A stretch of 64,000 bases of DNA, from NCBI GenBank assembly GCA_030710605.1, contig CP092863.1, positions 141,066,472 through 141,130,471 of the forward strand, written 5' to 3'. The stretch is from Cordylochernes scorpioides (taxonomy: Eukaryota; Arthropoda; Arachnida; Pseudoscorpiones; Chernetidae). The notes beneath the pieces are model-generated. The model searched no databases. It was given only the letters and a program-made list of their open reading frames with translations, and was not told the origin of the DNA. Made by a program: the position numbers and the translations under genes. Positions 4,930 to 51,874 of this stretch are shown here, in pieces. The number at the start of each line of letters is the position of its first letter. Position 1 is the stretch's first letter.

Positions 4930-7900
4930 CTGGACACACCCAGTTACATCTAACTGTGGTTGACAAACATTTATTTTGCTTATCCCTAGTACACGTGGTA
5001 CAGTAATCATGTTGGGTAGAAGTTGATGACTGCTTTTACTGTAAGTGCACCACAGTTCGACTTTTGCATTTACAAATATGCCAGAGCCCCGTTTGGTTAC
5101 TTACACTCGCTGGTGGGGTTGGACTTATATTTCGTTTTGGAATATAATTACAAATGTGCCAGAGCTACAGTATACAGGCCATGATATTCATGGTGGGTAG
5201 AAGTGGGCAACTGCTTTTACTGTGAGCGCACCACATGTCTACACATGAAGTTCGATTTTTCCCTTAAAAATATGCCAGAGCCACAGTGTACAGGGTACAA
5301 GCCATGATATTCATGGTGGGTAGAAGTAGGCAAAGCCACAGTGTACAGGGTACAAGCCATGATATTCATGGTGGGTAGAAGTAGGCAAATGCTTTTACTG
5401 TGGATGCACCACATGTCTACACATGTGAAAAGCAGTTCGACTTTTGTACTTACAAATCTGCCAGAGAGCCCTGTTTGTTTACTTGCACTCGCTGGTGGGG
5501 TTGGATTTTTGCAAGAATCGGGGGCCATTGGAGCATTTCTTTTCAAATAAAAAAAAAGTGCCCAATGCTGGAATCGAACCCGAGTCGTAGCAGTCGAAAA
5601 CCAACGGTTTAGACCATTCTTTCACTGACCCCTGGTGTAAAAACATAGATGGATTATGAAAATTCGAAACTATTATAGACGCGTATGATTCTTTTTAAAG
5701 GTCAAACAATTATTTATACTGCCCTTACTGCAATGAAAAATTAATGGGAGTAAGGGCAGTAGAAATAGTTTAATAATAATAATAAAAAGAATCATACGCG
5801 TCTATAATAGTTTCGAATTTTGATAACAGATGGAGCACTAATGTATCATAATACAATATTATATAAAGGTTGTTGTAACTTACCAATGACATAGAGGGTA
5901 TTGTTCAGAAGTACAAGATTGTGGTGATGTCTTGGTACTGGCATCTTGCCAGCTTGTTCCCATTTGTCATCATTCGGGTAGTACACGTGTATGGCCGTTC
6001 CTGCACACATGGGTGGATTCAGAGTTAACATGTGAGATAGAAAAAATGAAAGTGTTCCATTTTCACATCAAAATGTCTTCACAATGTAGCCTCTCGAAGC
6101 CTAAATGTGACCGATTTTTTCCTAGTTTAGAAAGCCAATATATACAATCATAGACAAGACTTAAGGAAGTTTGCAGCTGCAATGCTTTAATGCCTCAATT
6201 CTTATATATAGATGGAATGATATCGCCTTATAATTATATGGTCTGTGTGTTGTTGTTGTCATGTCCAATGAAGAGCCTCAGATGTCCCCGTGCATCTCTA
6301 TCACAGCAGTCTCAATGTCCTCTTTGTGGTTCATTGAGTTTATATGTGGTCTGTGCGTATTTTCGCTAAGTAATACCCAGACGGTTGCCACCTACCCACG
6401 GTGAGATCATCGGTCCTGAAAGGGTCCAGGCCGCCAGTAACGTAAAGCAGCGGTTGATCAGGGACTCTGAAGAAGTCCGGAGATGTGGACTTGGGACCTC
6501 CGATCTCGAACCAATCGTCGATATTGTTGAGGTAGAGGTTGGAGGCGGGGTTGGTGATCTGGAGGATGATCTTGGGGTCCAGCCACACCTGGTCGGGTTT
6601 CTTCACCATCTGACAGCACACAGCTCCTGTGGTTCCTTCATATATATATATATATATATATATGGTGTGACTACAATCATCATCTTTGTTCATCATAAGA
6701 GTCTATATATATTCAATAAAATAATCTTCTGTATTATTATTAAGGTGAAAAAAATATATATACACTCATGGACAAAACTTAAGGAAGTTGTACCTTTTAG
6801 CATGTATATCGGGATTCAGACAATAACTCTGAAAGATACACTCATGGACAAAACTTAAGGAAGTTGTACCTTTTAGCATGTATATCGGGATTCAGACAAT
6901 AACTCTGAAAGATACACTCATGGACAAAACTTAAAGAAGTTGTACCTTTTAGCATGTATATCGGGATTCAGACAATAACTCTGAAAGATACACTCATGGA
7001 CAAAACTTAAGGAAGTTGTACCTTTTAGCATGTATATCGGGATTCAGACAATAACTCTGAAAGATACACTCATGGACAAAACTTAAGGAAGTTGTACCTT
7101 TTAGCATGTATATCGGGATTCAGACAATAACTCTGAAAGATACACTCATGGACAAAACTTAAGGAGGTTGTACCTTTTAGCATGTATATCGGGATTCAGA
7201 CAATAACTCTGAAAGATACACTCATGGACAAAACTTAAGGAAGTTGTACCTTTTAGCATGTATATCGGGATTCAGACAATAACTCTGAAAGATACACTCA
7301 TGGACAAAACTTAAGGAAGTTGTACCTTTTAGCATGTATATCGGGATTTAGACAATAACTCTGAAAGATACACTCATGGACAAAACTTAAGGAAGTTGTA
7401 CCTTTTAGCATGTATATCGGGATTCAGACAATAACTCTGAAAGATACACTCATGGACAAAACTTAAGGAAGTTGTACCTTTTAGCATGTATATCGGGATT
7501 CAGACAATAACTCTGAAAGATACACTCATGGACAAAACTTAAGGAAGTTGTACCTTTTAGCATGTATATCGGGATTCAGACAATAACTCTGAAAGATACA
7601 CTCATGGACAAAACTTAAGGAAGTTGTATCTTTTAGCATGTATATCGGGATTCAGACAATAACTCTGAAAGATACACTCATGGACAAAACTTAAGGAAGT
7701 TGTATCTTTTAGCATGTATATCGGGATTTAGACAATAACTCAGAAAGATACACTCATGGACAAAACTTAAGGAAGTTGTATCTTTTAGCATGTATATCGG
7801 GATTCAGACAATAACTCTGAAAGATACACTCATGGACAAAACTTAAGGAAGTTGTATCTTTTAGCATGTATATCGGGATTCAGACAATAACTCTGAAAGA

Positions 7901-10900
7901 TACACTCATGGACAAAACTTAAGGAAGTTGTATCTTTTAGCATGTATATCGGGATTCAGACAATAACTCTGAAAGATACACTCATGGACAAAACTTAAGG
8001 AAGTTGTATCTTTTAGCATGTATATCGGGATTCAGACAATAACTTTGAAAGATACACTCATGGACAAAACTTAAGGAAGTTGTATCTTTTAGCATGTATA
8101 TCGGGATTCAGACAATAACTCTGAAAGATACACTCATGGACAAAACTTAAGGAAGTTGTATCTTTTAGCATGTATATCGGGATTCAGACAATAACTCTGA
8201 AAGATACACTCATGGACAAAACTTAAGGAAGTTGTACCTTTCAGCATGTATATCGGGATTCAGACAATAACTCTGAAAGATATTACAGTGACATTTATTG
8301 AAGACACACGAGATAACCAAGTGTGAACAAAATTGCTTCTGTCTCTTAAATAAATAAAAAAAAAAAAACAGATGACCGGCGACATCAAAATATGAAACTT
8401 CATTAAGTTTTGTCCATGAGTGTATGTCTAGTACACCATGATAATCATGGTGGGCAGTTAACAACTGCTTTTACTCTAAGTGCACCTCATATATACATAT
8501 GTGGGAACAGTTCGACCTTTGCACTTGTAAGTGTGACAAATCAATCTCCAACTTGATTATTTTCACTCACTGGAGAGGTTGAACTTTAGCAAGAATCGAA
8601 AGTCATTGAAGTAGTAATGCGAGAATCGATTCTGAGTAGTGACCGTTGAAAATCGGCGGTTTATATATCACTGCTTCACCACCACCGATTGTTTTAAAGA
8701 AGGGCGATAAATATTGAAGATTACTATTTGAAATATTCCATTATTGCTTCAATCGCCCGATTCTTGTAGAATTCCAACCCCACAAATAAGTGTAAGTAAC
8801 TAAAACGGCACACTTGTAAGTTATACATTCCAACTACATATGTAGACATGTGGTATACTTACAATAAAATCCGTCACTAACTACCAACCGTAATTATCAT
8901 GGCCTATACAATGTTTATTAGGGATTAGTAAAAATGGCCAATAGAGGGTAAAAAAAAAAGATAACTCACCAAGCTTTTGTTCATGGCCTTGCGAACTCGA
9001 GAACCCCTGAAGATAGCTTGAATCTTCATTGCTGCCTGTAGGTAACGGACCTTCATCTTATAGAAGGAACGTCGAACCCGTAGACCTTTGTAGCAAGCTT
9101 GGATCTTTGTCGCAGCGTGGTAGATCTCAGCTTGGCTGTGGTAGTAGGGGTTGTACTTGGTGTCATCCTGCACGACCGCTATCTTGTCTTCTAATTCCTC
9201 AACTCATGGATTTCTGGGGGGGGGGGGATATGTAAATATAGTTAATCTATTCTGAGGCAATAACTCGCCATCTATATAAGATATAAAATACCATAAAGTA
9301 TGTTTGCATTCATGGACAAAACTTAAGGAAGCTGTACCTTTCAGCATGTATATCGGGATTCAGACAATAACTCTGAAAGATATTACAGTCACCTTTATTG
9401 AAGACATACGAGATAACCAAGTGTGTATACACTCATGAACAAAACATGAGGAAGTTGTACCTTTTAGCATGTACCAGGTCTATTAGTATGAAACGCGAAA
9501 ATGGCCGCCAGAGGGCGCTGTGAAGCTTTATTTGAGCCGATGGTGGCGCTGTTGAAGGCGTTTTGTTTTTCGACTCACGTGGCATCAGCACACGTGCAGT
9601 TTTAGAAAAATTGAAATCGTGGAAAATTTCTGGAGCCCGTGGAAAATGGCGATTTCCGAGCCAAAAAGTGCCCATTTGCGGGAAGTTTTGTTGTTCGCCT
9701 TCAACTGGAAGAAAAGTGCCACTGAAGCCCACCGAATGCTCGAGGAAGTTTACGGCGACCACGCTCTGAGCAAATCACAGTGTTACAGGTGGTTTAAAAA
9801 ATTCCAAAGTGGCGATTTCGAACTTGATAATGAACCACGTGGAAAACCGCCCCTAAAGTTAGAGGACGCTGAACTGCAAGCTTTGTTGGATAAGGACAGT
9901 ACCCAAACGCAGGAGAAACTCGCGAAACAGCTCCAGGTGTCTCAAGGTGCTGTTTCCCTACGTTTAAACAGCCTCGGAATGACCCAAAAGCTTTCCAGAT
10001 GGATCCCCCACGAGTTGAGCGAAAGGCAGCAAGAACGACGTCTGGTAACCTGCGAAGGGCTGCTCGTCAGGCATGAAAAGAAGTCATTTTTGCACCGAAA
10101 ACATAACTTCTGATGAGAAATGGATCCACTTCAGCAATCCTACGCGCCAAAAGTCGTGGGGCCTGCCCGGCCAATTTCCAAAACAGACACCTAGGCCCAA
10201 TCGCTTCGGAAAAAAGGCAATGCTTTGCGTATGGTGGGACCAGACCGGCGTAGTATATTTCGAGCTCCTGAAAGCTCCTGTCAATACTAGTCGAAACGAA
10301 CAACAGATGCACAGTTTGAGAGAGGCGTTTATTGAAAAAAGACCGGAATGGCGTGAAAAGCACAACAAGCTGATACAGCATGACAACGCTCCAGCCCACA
10401 ACGCTACGGTGGTCAAAAACACCATAATAGACTTGGGCTGGGAACTCTTACCCCACCCGCCGTACTCACCAGACTTAGCGCCGTCGGACTACCACCTTTT
10501 CACATCTTTAGGACACGCCCTAAAAAACCAGGAATTTTCGAACTCAGACATACTCCGAAAATGGCTTGTTGACTGGTTCGACTCAAAAGGAATAGAATTT
10601 TTCAGACAAGGAATTCGAAAATTGCCTGAAAGGTGGTCCGAGTGTATAGCTAATCAGGGCAATTACTTTGAATAAATAATCTTTTGTTGTATGGAATTGG
10701 TGAACATTTGAATTCACTGAAATTTTTCGCGTTTCATACTAATAGACCTGGTATATCGGGATTCAGCCAATAAATCTGAAAGATATTACAGTGACCTTTA
10801 TTGAAGACACAAGATAACCAAGCGAAAAAAGTCTCTGTCTTCTTCTTTTTCTTTAAAAAAAAAGTACCGGCGATATCATAAACCTTCCACTTCCTTAAGT

Positions 10901-13900
10901 TTTGTTTATGAGTGTTATTTCTAAATATTACAATGAGAGAAACGTAGCCTCCGAGGATAAGTTTCTTATTTTAATAAACGCCTTCTCAAGCTTTCGGGTA
11001 GTGTGAACCCTGCTACAGGAGTATATAACGAAATGAATATCAATTTCGTTATATGCTCCTGTAGAAAGGTTTACACACTACCCGAAAGCTTGAGAAGGCG
11101 TTTATTAAAATAAGAAACTTATCCTCGGAGGCTACGTTTTATTGTAATTTAAATTTCAGAGGATTCGTCCGATTTTCTAGATAGGTTTAACGCTTCACGA
11201 TTTTGCGTGTCATCCTTGCGCTGGGGCCATGCTAATCTTCTCTGTATCGTTCCTATTGTAGTAGTTGTACCGCCGAACTGGTATCACAGGTGCCATGCTA
11301 ATCTTCTCTGTATCCTTCCTATTGTAGTAGTTGTACCGCCGAACTGGTATCACAGGGGCCATGCTAATATTCTCTGTGCATCGTTCCTATTGTAGTAGTT
11401 GTACCGCCGAACTGGTATCACAGGTGCCATGCTAATATTCTCTGTATCCTTCCTATTGTAGTAGTTGTACCGCCGAACTGGTATCACAGGGGCCATGCTA
11501 ATATTCTCTGTGTATCCTTCCTATTGTAGTAGTTGTACCGCCGAACTGGTATCACAGGGGTCATGCTAATATTCTCTGTGCATCGTTCCTATTGTAGTAG
11601 TTGTACCGCCGAACTGGTATCACAGGGGCCATGCTAATATTCTCTGTGCATCGTTCCTATTGTAGTAGTTGTACCGCCGAACTGGTATCACAGGTGCCAT
11701 GCTAATATTCTCTGTATCCTTCCTATTGTAGTAGTTGTACCGCCGAACTGGTATCACAGGGGTCATGCTAATCTTCTCTGTATCCTTCCTATTGTAGTAG
11801 TTGTACCGCCGAACTGGTATCACAGGGGTCATGCTAATCTTCTCTGTATCGTTCCTATTGTAGTATATGTACCGCCGAACAAGCGTGTACTAGGTTCAAT
11901 AATATATAGGTTTAAGATATAGAGTTAAAAATAAAAGTATTCAAATATTGAGGTATGTGTTTGTGTTTACTTACCCAAAGCATAGTTTCCCCTTCCAGCA
12001 AATACTTCCTGGGTCTCTGTTGATACTTGAGGAAGCTATCTTGTTTACCAACAATCCTAGCGGCTGCATAGCTGACACACACAGTAAACATTATGTAAAT
12101 ATGATACGTTAGCGCGCCATCTATATTTAGGAAATAAAACTATTAAGTACAATTTTTCTTTTTTGCAAATAAAACAAACTTTCTACTGTCCTTACTGCGA
12201 TGAAAAAGGGTGAATTATATTAGTGAAACGGCTAGATGATTTCATTACTGATGAGACAAATACGTTATCACGCCATTCTATATTCAAGAAGTGAAACCAA
12301 ATAAGAATGGAAATCTACTGCTGTACATGACTGGTACAGAGCTGGAGGGACAATTATGGTCTACCAGAGGAGGTTATGGGTTCTATGGAGACGTACCATG
12401 TGGCACAGAGCAGCATGTGCAGAACCTCCGGAATCTCCAAGATCCCCGGCAGTACTGGCGGATGGAAGCACGCCAGCAGTTCCTCCACGGACATCTGGTT
12501 GAAGCGAACACACGACAGCACCTGGGGCACGTGCTTCTCCCTCGTGTAGAAGTCGTAGTCGATCCACTTGAGGGCGGCCATGAACACGGGGATCTCGCTG
12601 GTGGGCACCCGTGAGTCACACGTAGTGTGGTGAACATGTTGTAGGCGTTACAGGTAAGATGTTGTAGCCTCGAGTTACACGAAGTATGTACTAGATATCA
12701 AGTTACACGATGAGTGGTGTATAGAGAATATTGTAGCCTCAAGTTACACGAAGAGTGGTATGGAGAGCATGTTGTATCCTCAAGTTACACGAAGTAATAT
12801 AGTAGCTATCAAATTACACGAAGAGAGGTGTATAGAACACGTTGTAGTCTCAAGTTACACGAAGAGTGGTTTAGAGAGAATGTTGTATCGTCAAGTTACA
12901 AGTAGTAATAGAGTAGCTATCAAATTACACGAAGAGTCATGTAGAGAGCATGTTGTAGCCTCAAGTTACACGAAAAGTGGGCTAGAGAGCATGTTGTAGC
13001 CTAAAGTTACACGAAGTAATGCAGTAGCAATCAAATTACACGAAGGGTGGTGAAGAAACCATGTTGCAGCCTCAAGTTACACGAAGAGTGGTGTGAATAG
13101 CATGTTGCAGCCTCAAGTTACACGAAGAGTGGTGTGAATAGCATGTTGTAGCCTCAAGTTACACGTTATACGTATTAGGTATCAAGTAACACACAATGTA
13201 TTATAATATCCGTATTCACTATCTTAATAGAAATGTTGTTTTTTAAAATACCAAAGAGCGAAAAAAAAAAAAGGAACCGTGCCAGAATCGAACCGTTAAC
13301 CTTTTCTCTCGAGTCTGACAGACACACAACCATTGCTCCGTGACCACTTGCGGTACTAAGGACTATAGGTCTATTTAATGGTTTATCTAATTTAACCAGA
13401 CAAATCATTTCTCTACCCACTAAGAATGGAAACGCACTTACACCTATACGATAATGTAAATAGTGATTAGCGGAACATTGTGGGTTCGATTCCCATCCCT
13501 GGACACTTTTATTTTTCCGTTCATCATTACTCTTCATAATTCACCCTTTCATACCTAATCCAAAAAGGTTAGAAATAGTAAATATTTCACCTTGAAATAA
13601 ATTTTGATTTTTAATTGAAAAGGCACTCATGCGGTGTAACTTTAAGTGTTGTTTTACAGGTCTTTTTATATTTACATAATACCTTATTCAGATGTGTTGT
13701 AGGCAATTGAAGCATTTTTAACGGGAGAAGTGACTATTTTAATACATTACTGCCATCCTCCCGACACTTTATATATATATATATTGTAAATTACCTGCTT
13801 TGTCAATCAATTATTTATTTATTTATGTTTACCTAGCCATATATTTTTTCCAACCAACTACTAACCAACCAATTTATGTATTTATTTATGTTGTGGGTCG

Positions 13901-19900: not shown

Positions 19901-22900
19901 TTCTATATTGTTTGTTTGCTTTTTTTCTCAAATGGGGTAAAATATACGGAAAAAAATACAATTTGTTGTAAAAAAAAAAAGTTTTTTTTCTTTTTTTGCT
20001 TATCCTTAGTACACGTGGTACAGGCCATGATAATCATGGTAGGTAGAAGTAGGCGACTGCTTTTACTGTAAGTGTACCACATGTCTACACATGTGAAAAG
20101 CAGTTCGACTTTGCACTTACAAATGTGCCAGAGCCCCGTTTGGTTACTTGCATTCGCTGGTGGGGTTGGACTTTTGCAAGAATCGGGGGCCATCGGAGCA
20201 TTTTTTTTTTTTAATCAGAAAAAAGTGTCCAATGCGGGAATATCGAAACCGTGTCGTAGCGGACGAAAACCAACGGTTTAGACCATCCTTCCACTGACCC
20301 CCTGTTGTAAAAAAGTAATAGAGATTATACTGCTAAGTAAATAAAGTTCGTAAACATTATTTATGAATATATTATGATATAATTATTCCATATTATCTTT
20401 TTCTCTTCTATAGAAGAGATTTTTAGGTCTGAATTCTAGAAGGTCGCATCAAATATACACTCATGGACAAAATATAAGGAAGTTGTACCTTTTAGCATGT
20501 ATATCGGGATTGAGACAATAACTCTGAAATATATTACAGTGACCTTTATTGAAGACACACGAGATAACCAAGTATGTATACACTCATGGACAAAACTTAA
20601 GTAAGTTGCACCTTTTAGCATGTATATCGGGATTCAGACAATAACTCTGAAAGTTATTACAGTGACCTTTATTGAAGACACACGAGATAACCAAGTATGT
20701 ATACATTCATAAACAAATCTTAAGGAAGTTGTATCTTTCAGCATGTATATCGGGATTCAGACATAATTCTGGAAGATATTTGACATACGGTGACCTCTAT
20801 TGAAGACACACGAGATAACCAAGTGTGAACAAAATTGTCTCTGTCTTCTTCTTCTTCAACAAAAAAAGACCGGCGACATCAAATAATTCCACTACTATTT
20901 CCTTTATTTTTGTCCATGAGCATATGTTACATTTTGCATAATGATAATTTGATCCAATCAATATTGGTTGGAGACGAAGTCACAACACAATAACATAATT
21001 TTACAATTGGCCAATGCTGATATTGTGTCTTTGTTACCGACCCGAGTCCGGTAGTTTACGGAGACGATCATTAAATGACACTTAGTTTTAGCTTCTTTGT
21101 TTTAAAAAGAGAGCCGACTATTATTTTATAAATTTATAAATAAACTATATGATGAATCATTGATATTTATATTCATACGACTACTTGATAAAAAGTTAAT
21201 ATGGGAAAATATATGTAAATAAGATACTTACATCCTGTACTTCAAGGCGACCTGGAGCTAGCAGATTTTTCTGGAAGAACGGGCAGTAGCACGTGAGGAC
21301 GGCTTTATGTGCAAGGAAACAGCGGTCTTTGACTCTCACAACGATGTCAGTCATGTGAGATTTGATCCAGAGCTGTACGGTATGTTCGCCAAGTCGGGCG
21401 TGATGGATACATGTGGAGCTAGGGGCGTCTTTCCACATGGGCGCGGTACTTCCCATCATCTGGAAATGTGGGGGGTTTCCTTGTCCTATGGAAGGTAGAA
21501 GTGGAGGGCGGCTATCGGCGATGTAAGGGTCAAGACTCGATTCTAACCACGGCTGCACAATAGATTGTGGTTAAAACTACTTCATCGTAAAGATAGAGGT
21601 TGCCTGGCCTGCATTCATATTTATATAAAAAATAGACATTTCGGCCAGTTGGAATTTTTTATTTTCTCAACGTTTCGACAAAAATATTTTGTCTTCTTCA
21701 GGCGAAGTAAATAAAAATAAAGCATTTGGTAAGGCGTTAAAAATTGTTCTGGGGTTGCAAGGGCGTTCTTACGTGATTTCTTTTTTAAATCACGTGAGAA
21801 TGCCCTTGCAAATCTCAGAACAATTTTAAACGCCTTACCAAATGCTTTATTTTTTTTTACTTCGCCTGAAGAAGACAAAATATTTTTGTCGAAACGTTGA
21901 GAAAAAAAAAAAAAACTCCAACTGGCCGAAGTGTCTATTTTTCATAAAAAACCACTTTATTACAATTTTCATATATAATACAATATAATGCGGCTTATGA
22001 TTGTAGAACGACGTTTTCACAAGTTTTACCGGAAATGTTTCTTTTGAACGAAAAATCGTAATTTATTTTAAGGAGAAATGACGACTATTCCTATCCTTAT
22101 TTCATTTACCAGTTGCAAACAAGACACGCTATATCCGATCTGGATAATTGCGCGTGAAACTATTTACACTAATTCATATTGTAGTAGGGTAGGTAACAGA
22201 ATTATCAAAAGGAAAATAAATCCTTAGGGATGATGTATAAAAGGATGAATTGTTTTTTTCCCCTTATCCCTAGTCCACGTGGTACAGGCCATGATAATCA
22301 TGGTGGGTAGTTAGCGACTGCTTTTACTGTAAGTACACCACATGTCTACACATGTGAAAAGCAGTTCGACTTTGCACTTACAAATGTGCCAGAGCCCCGT
22401 TTGGGTAATTGCACTCGCTGGTGGGATTGAACTTTTACAAGAATCGGGGGTCATTGGAGCATTTTTTTTTTCAAAACAGAAAAAGTGCCAAATGCGGGAA
22501 TCGAACCCGGGTCGTAGCGGTCGAAAACGAACGGTTTAGACCATCCTTCCATTGACCCCCCAGGATGAATTGTGAAGAGTAATAATGAACGGAAAAATAA
22601 AATCCCTGGACACTTTTATTTTTCCGTTCATCATTGCTTTTCACAATTCATCCTTTCATACCTCATCCCTAAAGATAGAAATAGTCGTTATTTCTCCTTA
22701 AAATAAATTACGATTTTTCGTTCAAAAGAAACATTTGCGGTAAAACTTGTCGTTTTACAATGTTCATATATAAGATTATTCCACTAGATGGCGCTATGCC
22801 ATCTAAAATCACATGTTCTTCTGGTCAGGATATGCCTTCATTATTTTTAATATAAGATTATATAGGGTTTTAAATACAAAATTGAATGGTAGATTAAACT

Positions 22901-28279: not shown

Positions 28280-28437
28280 CTACAAATTGATCTTTGAATT
28301 TATATCTATAAAGCTGTTTTATTGGTGTTTTTTTACTAGTAAAAATGGTTGACGAGGTTCTTCATAGCTTTGAACGGCAATTCATCTCATAGAGACAATT
28401 TTGATGGCGAACCCTTATTTGGTTCTTGATATTTTTA

Positions 28438-28882
28438 CACTCATGGACAAAACTTAAGGAAGTTGTACCTCTCAGCATGTATATCGGGTGTCAGACAATA
28501 ACTCTGAAAGATATTACCGTGACCTTTATTGAAGATAACACTGAATTACACTCATAGACAAAACTTGAGGAAGTTGTACCTTTCAGCATGTATATCGGGA
28601 GTCAGACAATAACTCTGAAAGATATTACCGTGACCTTTATTGAAGATAAACACTGAATTACACTCATAGACAACACTTAAGGAAATTTTACCTTTTGGCA
28701 TGTATATTGGGATTCAGACTATAACTTTGAAAGATATTACAGTGACCTTTATTGAAGACACACGAGAAAAACAAGTCTGAACAAAATTGCCTCTGTCCCC
28801 TTTAAAACAAATAACAACAAAATAAAACAGACGACTGGTAATATTAAAGACTTTCTACCTCCCTAAGTTTTGTTCATGAGTT
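28438..28882 (+). repeat. MITE-A copy with end tripled at 111-112-bp spacing
   Basis: Left termini start at 28438, 28549 and 28661. Units end with GAAGATAACACTGAATTA before restarting. The third runs into the complete body and the right end TTAAGTTTTGTTCATGAG-like at 28882. The junction sequence differs from that of the 123-bp array at 20458. Confidence 0.85.
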
Positions 28883-51460: not shown

Positions 51461-51874
51461 CACTCATGGACAAAACATAGAGTTTTACATTTTACCCTAT
51501 ATATCAGGATTAAAACAATAACTCTGAAAGATATTACAGTGACCTTTATTGAAGACACACGAGATAACCAAGTGTGAACAAAACTTAAGGAAGTTGTACC
51601 TTTCAGCATATATATCGGGATTCAGACAACAACTCTGAAAGATATTACAGTGACCTTTATTGAAGACACACGAGATAACCAAGTGTGAACAAAACTTAAG
51701 GAAGTTGTACCTTTCAGCATATATATCGGGATTCAGACAACAACTCTGAAAGTTATTACAGTGACCTTTATTGAAGACACACGAGATAACCAAGTGTGAA
51801 CAGCCTCTATGTCTTAAAAAATAGACGAACAGTGACATCAAAATATGAAATTTCTTTAACTTTTGTCCATGAGT
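51461..51874 (+). repeat. MITE-A copy with end tripled at about 110-bp spacing
   Basis: The segment AACAAAACTTAAGGAAGTTG ... GATAACCAAGTGTG is repeated with units at 51461, about 51570 and about 51680. At each internal junction GTGTG runs straight into AACAAAACTTAAGG, so the outer CACTCATGG is missing. The third unit continues to the right end TTTTGTCCATGAGTG. The junction differs from those of the other arrays. Confidence 0.85.

Follow-up and report, generated by a model that had tools for sequence, protein, structure and literature searches.

A probable case of a retroposed U6 snRNA copy expanded internally in tandem, within a large dispersed repeat family of Cordylochernes scorpioides

Satellite DNA can grow from a retroposon or an RNA gene, which yields head-to-tail monomers, local homogenisation and high copy number, while snRNA-derived SINEs are dispersed retroposons with an snRNA-derived head. 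As for U6 itself, mammalian U6 retropseudogenes and U6/L1 chimeras have, according to the parts of the source considered, an intact U6 5' end, often a truncated 3' end, target-site duplications and template switching between U6 and other RNAs (PMC4476161). In the fungus Magnaporthe grisea, tripartite chimeric retrogenes fuse several cellular RNAs, by their title via double template jumps (PMC2104539). The U6-derived arrays of C. scorpioides, first seen in a 64,000-nucleotide stretch of DNA (hereafter the window, meaning that whole stretch), bear comparison with each of these systems. With the mammalian copies they share the intact 5' end, flanking duplications and, it may be, template switching, but the words 'tandem' and 'dimer' occur 0 times in the main text of PMC4476161, whereas the Cordylochernes copy became a repeat of >20,000 units. 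They differ from snRNA-derived SINEs in that the unit repeats internally, and from satellites of the above kind in that the arrays are short and dispersed and that the seed gene's own 5' and 3' ends often bound them, as do, in part, insertion duplications.

The original prediction, namely a single U6-like sequence on the minus strand amplified internally into ten units, is borne out by the Rfam model and by reading the units (Table 1). The location also stands; the ends, formerly 11189 and 11892, are now set at 11191, where GAAGCG closes the 3' end and is followed by the flanking direct repeat, and at 11890. On the minus strand, the element begins with GTACACGCTTGTTCGGCGG, which is the U6 5' end, and the repeated domain corresponds to the 5'/central part (U6 nt ~1-64), in ten copies whose starts (GTTCGG, minus strand) lie at 11880, 11814, 11748, 11682, 11614, 11546, 11478, 11412, 11344 and 11278. 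Units 1, 2, 3, 7 and 9 are 66 nt long, units 4, 5, 6 and 8 are 68 nt long, with two additional bases immediately 5' of ACAGAGA (4/10 units), and unit 10 continues into the U6 3' part. Tandem Repeats Finder gives 11223-11880, a period of 66 and 9.8 copies. Units are joined by CCCCTGTGATACCAGTTCGG where normal U6 reads CCCCTGCGCAAGG, and the identity of unit 3 with unit 7 and of unit 4 with unit 8 may be taken as a sign of local block duplication.

Table 1. Features of the U6-derived array and its flanking repeat in the window
Feature	Position	Strand	Remarks
Whole element	11191..11890	-	U6 5' end GTACACGC, then ten tandem units, then U6 3' part GTGAAGCG
Unit 1, with true U6 5' stem-loop GTACACGCTTGTTCGGCGGTAC	11821..11890	-	Rfam U6 model 1-65, 51.4 bits
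Eight inner units, 66 or 68 bp, with linker TGTGATACCAG between them	11285..11820	-	
Last unit, a full-length U6 match including the 3' half	11179..11284	-	Rfam U6 model 1-105, 93.8 bits
5' copy of putative target-site duplication TTAAACCTAT	11906..11915	-	15 nt filler (11891-11905) before U6 +1
3' copy of putative target-site duplication TTAAACCTAT	11181..11190	-	Directly after GAAGCG

Run on the minus strand, the Rfam U6 covariance model (RF00026, gathering score 44) finds matches at both edges. Only the last unit is matched over model positions 1-105 (E 7.1e-23), and positions 1-65 are matched in unit 1 and at 11820-11755 (48.2 bits) and 11350-11285 (46.0 bits). Five further units score 37-41 bits, under the gathering score, and the unit at ~11754-11689 has no Rfam U6 match at E up to 0.5.

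As had been predicted, the 66-/68-bp steps preserve the catalytic core, ACAGAGA and TTAGCATG being kept in 10/10 units; among the arrays sampled, ACAGAGA is found in the consensus of 21/22 (the exception being L063). Such conservation might speak for a functional multi-ACAGAGA RNA, spliceosomal or U4-binding and under selection, but we find this hardly credible. The conservation is explicable by recent spread, the base after ACAGAGAA is changed (G to T) in units 3-8, i.e. 6/10, and the inner units lack the U6 3' half. The array starts at the snRNA 5' end, its upstream sequence is unlike the gene promoters seen, TATAWA is absent at -40..-18, and the lack of a T-run terminator after the 3' end, noticed from the outset, is confirmed. 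The 712-nt array RNA folds worse than 20/20 shuffles (z +8), on which ground a stable designed fold was rejected. Given the structure of U6 and a unit of ~nt 1-64, the 3' strand of the U6 internal stem-loop is presumably missing from the inner units. As the window array moreover has neither promoter nor terminator, expression of the arrays as U6 is improbable, and so is a role in splicing, judging from the sequence.

This array is one of a dispersed family, and the genome-wide count proposed in the original prediction gives >20,000 units. In the assembly (2,619,359,433 bases, 24 contigs), the junction CCTGTGATACCAGTTCGGCGGTAC has, with ≤3 mismatches, 10,641 + 11,382 = 22,023 matches (reversed control 0), which at 66 bp each amounts to ~1.45 Mb or 0.06% of the 2.62-Gb genome. 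In its head-to-tail monomers and the high copy number of its unit, the window array resembles satellite DNA. A DNA search with the array found at least 154 matches of 86-100% identity on 15/24 contigs (best 40 of 1722 candidates), and the longest overlapping run among the matches listed is ~5 kb (on C12). The window itself apart, the matches listed (within query 58 to 765) cover nothing beyond the repeat part, the U6 5' head and the U6 3' half, and none of them takes in the flanks of the window array. By strict tests on 20 distinct array loci, the U6 head is present in 10/20 and the U6 3' half in 10/20, with weaker likenesses to U6 ends, by eye, in several others. These loci come from L050-L079 (30 fetched, 20 distinct), which were the best matches to the window array and are therefore biased to similar arrays. 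L080-L087 were chosen from the junction, U6 3'-half and canonical-head lists for visible spacing or position. L088-L090 were picked from the derived-head list because a period could be seen in them, L091-L107 at will from the same list. In viral contigs, the junction and paired cores have 0 matches. The U6 core has one match in a genome-contig collection, a full U6 (L001, 104.9 bits) on JAIYDP010000129.1 from a Verrucomicrobiaceae bin, which is probably eukaryotic contamination.

The arrays are known here from the assembly alone, and one might ask whether they are an assembly artefact or a collapsed cluster of real U6 genes. This is very improbable, since the sampled arrays are separate places that differ in flanks and unit variants, which speaks against the collapse envisaged as a possible refutation, and the U6 genes seen stand apart from one another and carry promoters. 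In nine gene-like loci among the best-scoring U6 loci, a T-run and a TATA box close to -30 are both present (9/9; these loci were labelled by eye, partly for that TATA, and their PSE was judged by eye only). A multi-copy functional U6 cluster was likewise rejected, on the promoter and terminator data. U6 sequences are otherwise abundant: the U6 3' half is matched at least 3779 times in the genome, the canonical head ACATATACTAAAATTGG at least 3260 times and a derived head, in which ACAACTACTACAATAGG replaces ACATATACTAAAATTGG, at least 1594 times (control 0 in each case; both head counts include repeated heads inside arrays). For another snRNA, U2, the count of matches to the 5' piece CTTCTCGGCCTTTTGGCTAAGATCA is 6650 (≤3 mismatches, control 0); in eight copies (L119-L126) the likeness to U2 fades, by eye, within ~20 nt and 0/8 reach the Rfam gathering score, and among 100 exact matches listed no pair is nearer than ~850 bp.

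Evidence of retroposition comes from the flanks. For elements with both ends readable, the 43 nt at the 5' edge and the 45 nt beyond the 3' edge of the same element were aligned with each other, 3192 mismatched flank pairs serving as the null; 13 loci (genes, gene-like loci, L001 and L002) and one of 58 rows were left out. Single U6 copies have a flanking repeat at p<0.05 in 14/38 cases and at p<0.01 in 8/38 (p 1.7e-9), with duplications of 18 bp (L033), 15 bp (L044), 14 bp (L037 and L097) and 13 bp (L041) in single retrocopies. For arrays, the figures are 8/19 and 5/19 (Mann-Whitney p 8e-6), the 19 rows including the other-period arrays L010, L021 and L088 and a two-core row (other strand of L056); for 66-bp-type arrays alone, window array included, they are 5/16 and 3/16. 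Four of the eight positive arrays (L010, L021, L077 and L088, three of which are not of the 66-bp type) have CT-rich repeats, where matches are cheap and the evidence weaker. Clear cases are L068 (22 units, TCCAACAGAATCTC), L101 (5 units, TCCTTCTAACTCT), L083 (6 units, TCC[A/T]CAAGTGAT) and the window array, whose 10/10 match of TTAAACCTAT has, taken alone, p 0.016-0.019, i.e. moderate. In 11/19 arrays, L011 among them, there is no direct repeat above the 5% level. With promoter and terminator missing and these retroposition marks present, the inert satellite seeded by a U6 pseudogene, one of the two options first offered, is the most likely reading.

Several other repeats lie in the window. 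Next to the array, 10940-11139 is a near-perfect, MITE-like palindrome, with 100% complementarity between its 66-nt outer arms and 88% between the inner ones, in which Rfam mir-491 scores under the gathering score. By eye, 9469-10756 is a mariner-like transposon (33-nt inverted ends 97% complementary, two overlapping reading frames), and LINE-, mariner- and pogo-like fragments can be recognised as well. Another tandem family (ATACACTCATGGACAAAACTTAAGGAAGTT or alike) is found at 6760-8282, 20454-20824, 28435-28758 and 51498-51802, with periods of 76, 123, 112 and 111 bp, respectively.

Tandem growth is not peculiar to the 66-bp unit. U6 arrays with other units have periods of 48 bp (L080), 44 bp (L081), 112 bp (L082), 113 bp (L088), 125 bp (L089), 121 bp (L090) and ~49 bp (L118). 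The 44-49 bp units (L080, L081 and L118) consist of the first ~35 nt of U6 and a CA-rich or CATTTTG flank; the units of L088, L090 and L118 include sequence from upstream of the first copy, and that of L082 is without the flanking repeat. Full U6s also occur head to tail, three in L010 (with T-runs between them) and two in L021. U6 copies have thus been expanded in tandem on several occasions, and it is the 66-bp type that spread.

Once in place, the arrays seem to have had histories of their own. Among 613 units from 35 arrays, units are nearer to their own array in 29/35 arrays, the nearest neighbour lying in the same array with a frequency of 0.471 vs 0.038 on permuted labels (maximum 0.055, 100 permutations), and in some arrays (e.g. 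L063, L079, L103 and L107) half of the units or more share a change private to that array. The derived unit is dominant in 28/30 array rows (the exceptions being L083 and L011), which argues for one common source of that unit. First units tell something else: in arrays not picked by head type, they are canonical in 6/18 vs 16/355 for interior units (Fisher p 2.4e-4), and in 4/16 vs 4/331 without L072 and L083 (p 1.9e-4). This count omits L058+ (whose first unit is cut off), the window array (whose first unit is mixed), L099, all arrays selected by a derived head, and L051, L055, L063, L064 and L071 from among the 20 loci. Purely local expansion would not lead one to expect a canonical first unit ahead of a derived interior, a pattern that fits either a switch of the reverse transcriptase onto U6 RNA close to the 5' end or an invasion of older U6 retrocopies.

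Such an invasion could have been general, with a 66-bp satellite, carried for example on extrachromosomal circles, entering already scattered U6 retrocopies through homologous recombination and leaving in place the host head, tail and flanking repeats. The excess of canonical first units, the abundance of U6 copies with a 3' half and the make-up of L011, which is the same place as L002 (G000:C20:72888598 region) and has seven units with canonical ends around a derived middle, are all in its favour. This scenario is possible but rather doubtful, because the first unit is derived in 12/18 of the same arrays, although canonical heads outnumber derived ones genome-wide by the above counts, and the last unit is canonical in just 2/18.

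L011 is also of interest in another respect. Directly before its U6 head lies ~70 nt of the U4 5' part (Rfam U4 47.5 bits, gathering score 46), so that this locus, for which no flanking duplication was found, is a U4-U6 chimera. It may come from template jumps like the retrogenes of M. grisea, a 66-bp tandem repeat not being mentioned in the part of that source considered (PMC2104539). As for the window array, a hidden U4 fragment before it was rejected, with no Rfam match for a U4 remnant up to E 5 in 11860-12200, and so was a DNA-level duplication of its neighbourhood with L011, since the flanks differ and their likeness is in common repeats only.

Might the multi-unit RNA itself have been mobile? 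A transcribed U6 concatemer would then have been reverse-transcribed and inserted whole, in the manner of a SINE that has an internal repeat, sometimes switching to U6 or U4 RNA. The edges of the arrays often fall at U6 +1 and at the U6 3' half, with direct repeats around part of them; this agrees with such a scenario, as do the U4 part of L011 and the head-to-tail full-length U6s of L010 with T-runs between them. We nonetheless consider it unlikely, since the locus-specific variants point to growth after insertion and signals for transcription are rare, TATAWA at -40..-18 being present in 3/33 array rows (L092, L094 and L088) and a T5 no further than 30 nt from the 3' end in 2/23 (other-period arrays included in both counts).

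A search of the genome with the promoter of the U6 gene L014 (best 40 of 276 candidates scored, all 16 listed promoter-covering matches inspected) points the same way, none of the 16 leading into an array, although finding none does not prove absence. Ten of the 16 are single-length U6 genes, including L014 and L012; for the other eight, length was judged from a masked stretch of exactly the canonical 69 nt, followed by the U6 3' end and T-run. L116 is a broken chimera, and in L117 the U6 portion is lost. L127-L130 continue into other sequence; a single U6 stands separately ~260 nt past the L127 promoter, and a short 66-bp array lies on the opposite strand at L129 and L130. The transcribed multi-ACAGAGA RNA of the original prediction thus finds no promoter support in the window or in these matches. 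In L116 (G000:C8:80890700-80891900; Rfam U6 53.4 bits), two U6 5' parts and a piece resembling a U6 promoter are joined in one insertion flanked, by eye, by a 15-bp repeat (CATCAAGCACAATAA). At L128, L129 and L130, L014-like promoters precede other sequences, which may be other pol III genes.

Taken together, the window locus is likely to be a retroposed U6 snRNA copy, internally expanded in tandem and belonging to a large dispersed family. As a whole, the arrays probably form inert tandem DNA derived from U6 and dispersed over the genome, with retroposition marks on its members. We picture the following course of events: (i) U6 RNA would have been reverse-transcribed and inserted by LINE machinery, as U6 is in mammals (the U6 copies in this analysis are tied to no LINE), (ii) in one U6 lineage, ~nt 1 to 64 would have been duplicated, a shortened and altered 5' end becoming the linker, (iii) copies with that duplication would have spread through the genome, (iv) each array would, after insertion, have grown, shrunk and been homogenised locally by unequal exchange or slippage and (v) units would occasionally have been exchanged between loci. 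Neither a founder nor a dimer with a promoter came to light, so that the route of spread is one that we infer, and the shared 66-bp unit may have been moved by multi-unit RNA, by template switching or by invasion of existing U6 retrocopies. The most far-reaching version, in which a germ-line multi-unit U6 RNA is a new kind of mobile repeat, built by template switching, able to fuse with U4, inserted whole with target-site duplications and then subject to satellite growth, strikes us as improbable.

How novel is all this? An internally expanded U6 is not described in the titles and abstract openings listed in searches of open-licence literature (subscription papers being mostly outside this scope), nor is a U6 satellite in the parts considered of PMC4476161, PMC4935994 and PMC12274263. 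The components, snRNA retrocopies and satellite growth, are of known kinds, while their combination, and its scale in U6, were not met in the open-licence literature so covered.

In conclusion, it seems that a spliceosomal RNA has seeded a new sort of repeated DNA, the importance of which does not lie in any likely role in splicing. What it shows is a way in which an RNA that ranks among the most conserved of eukaryotes becomes dispersed tandem DNA. It also provides thousands of loci, marked by their flanks, for testing how a retrocopy becomes a satellite, whether through events in the RNA that precede insertion or through events in the DNA that follow it.
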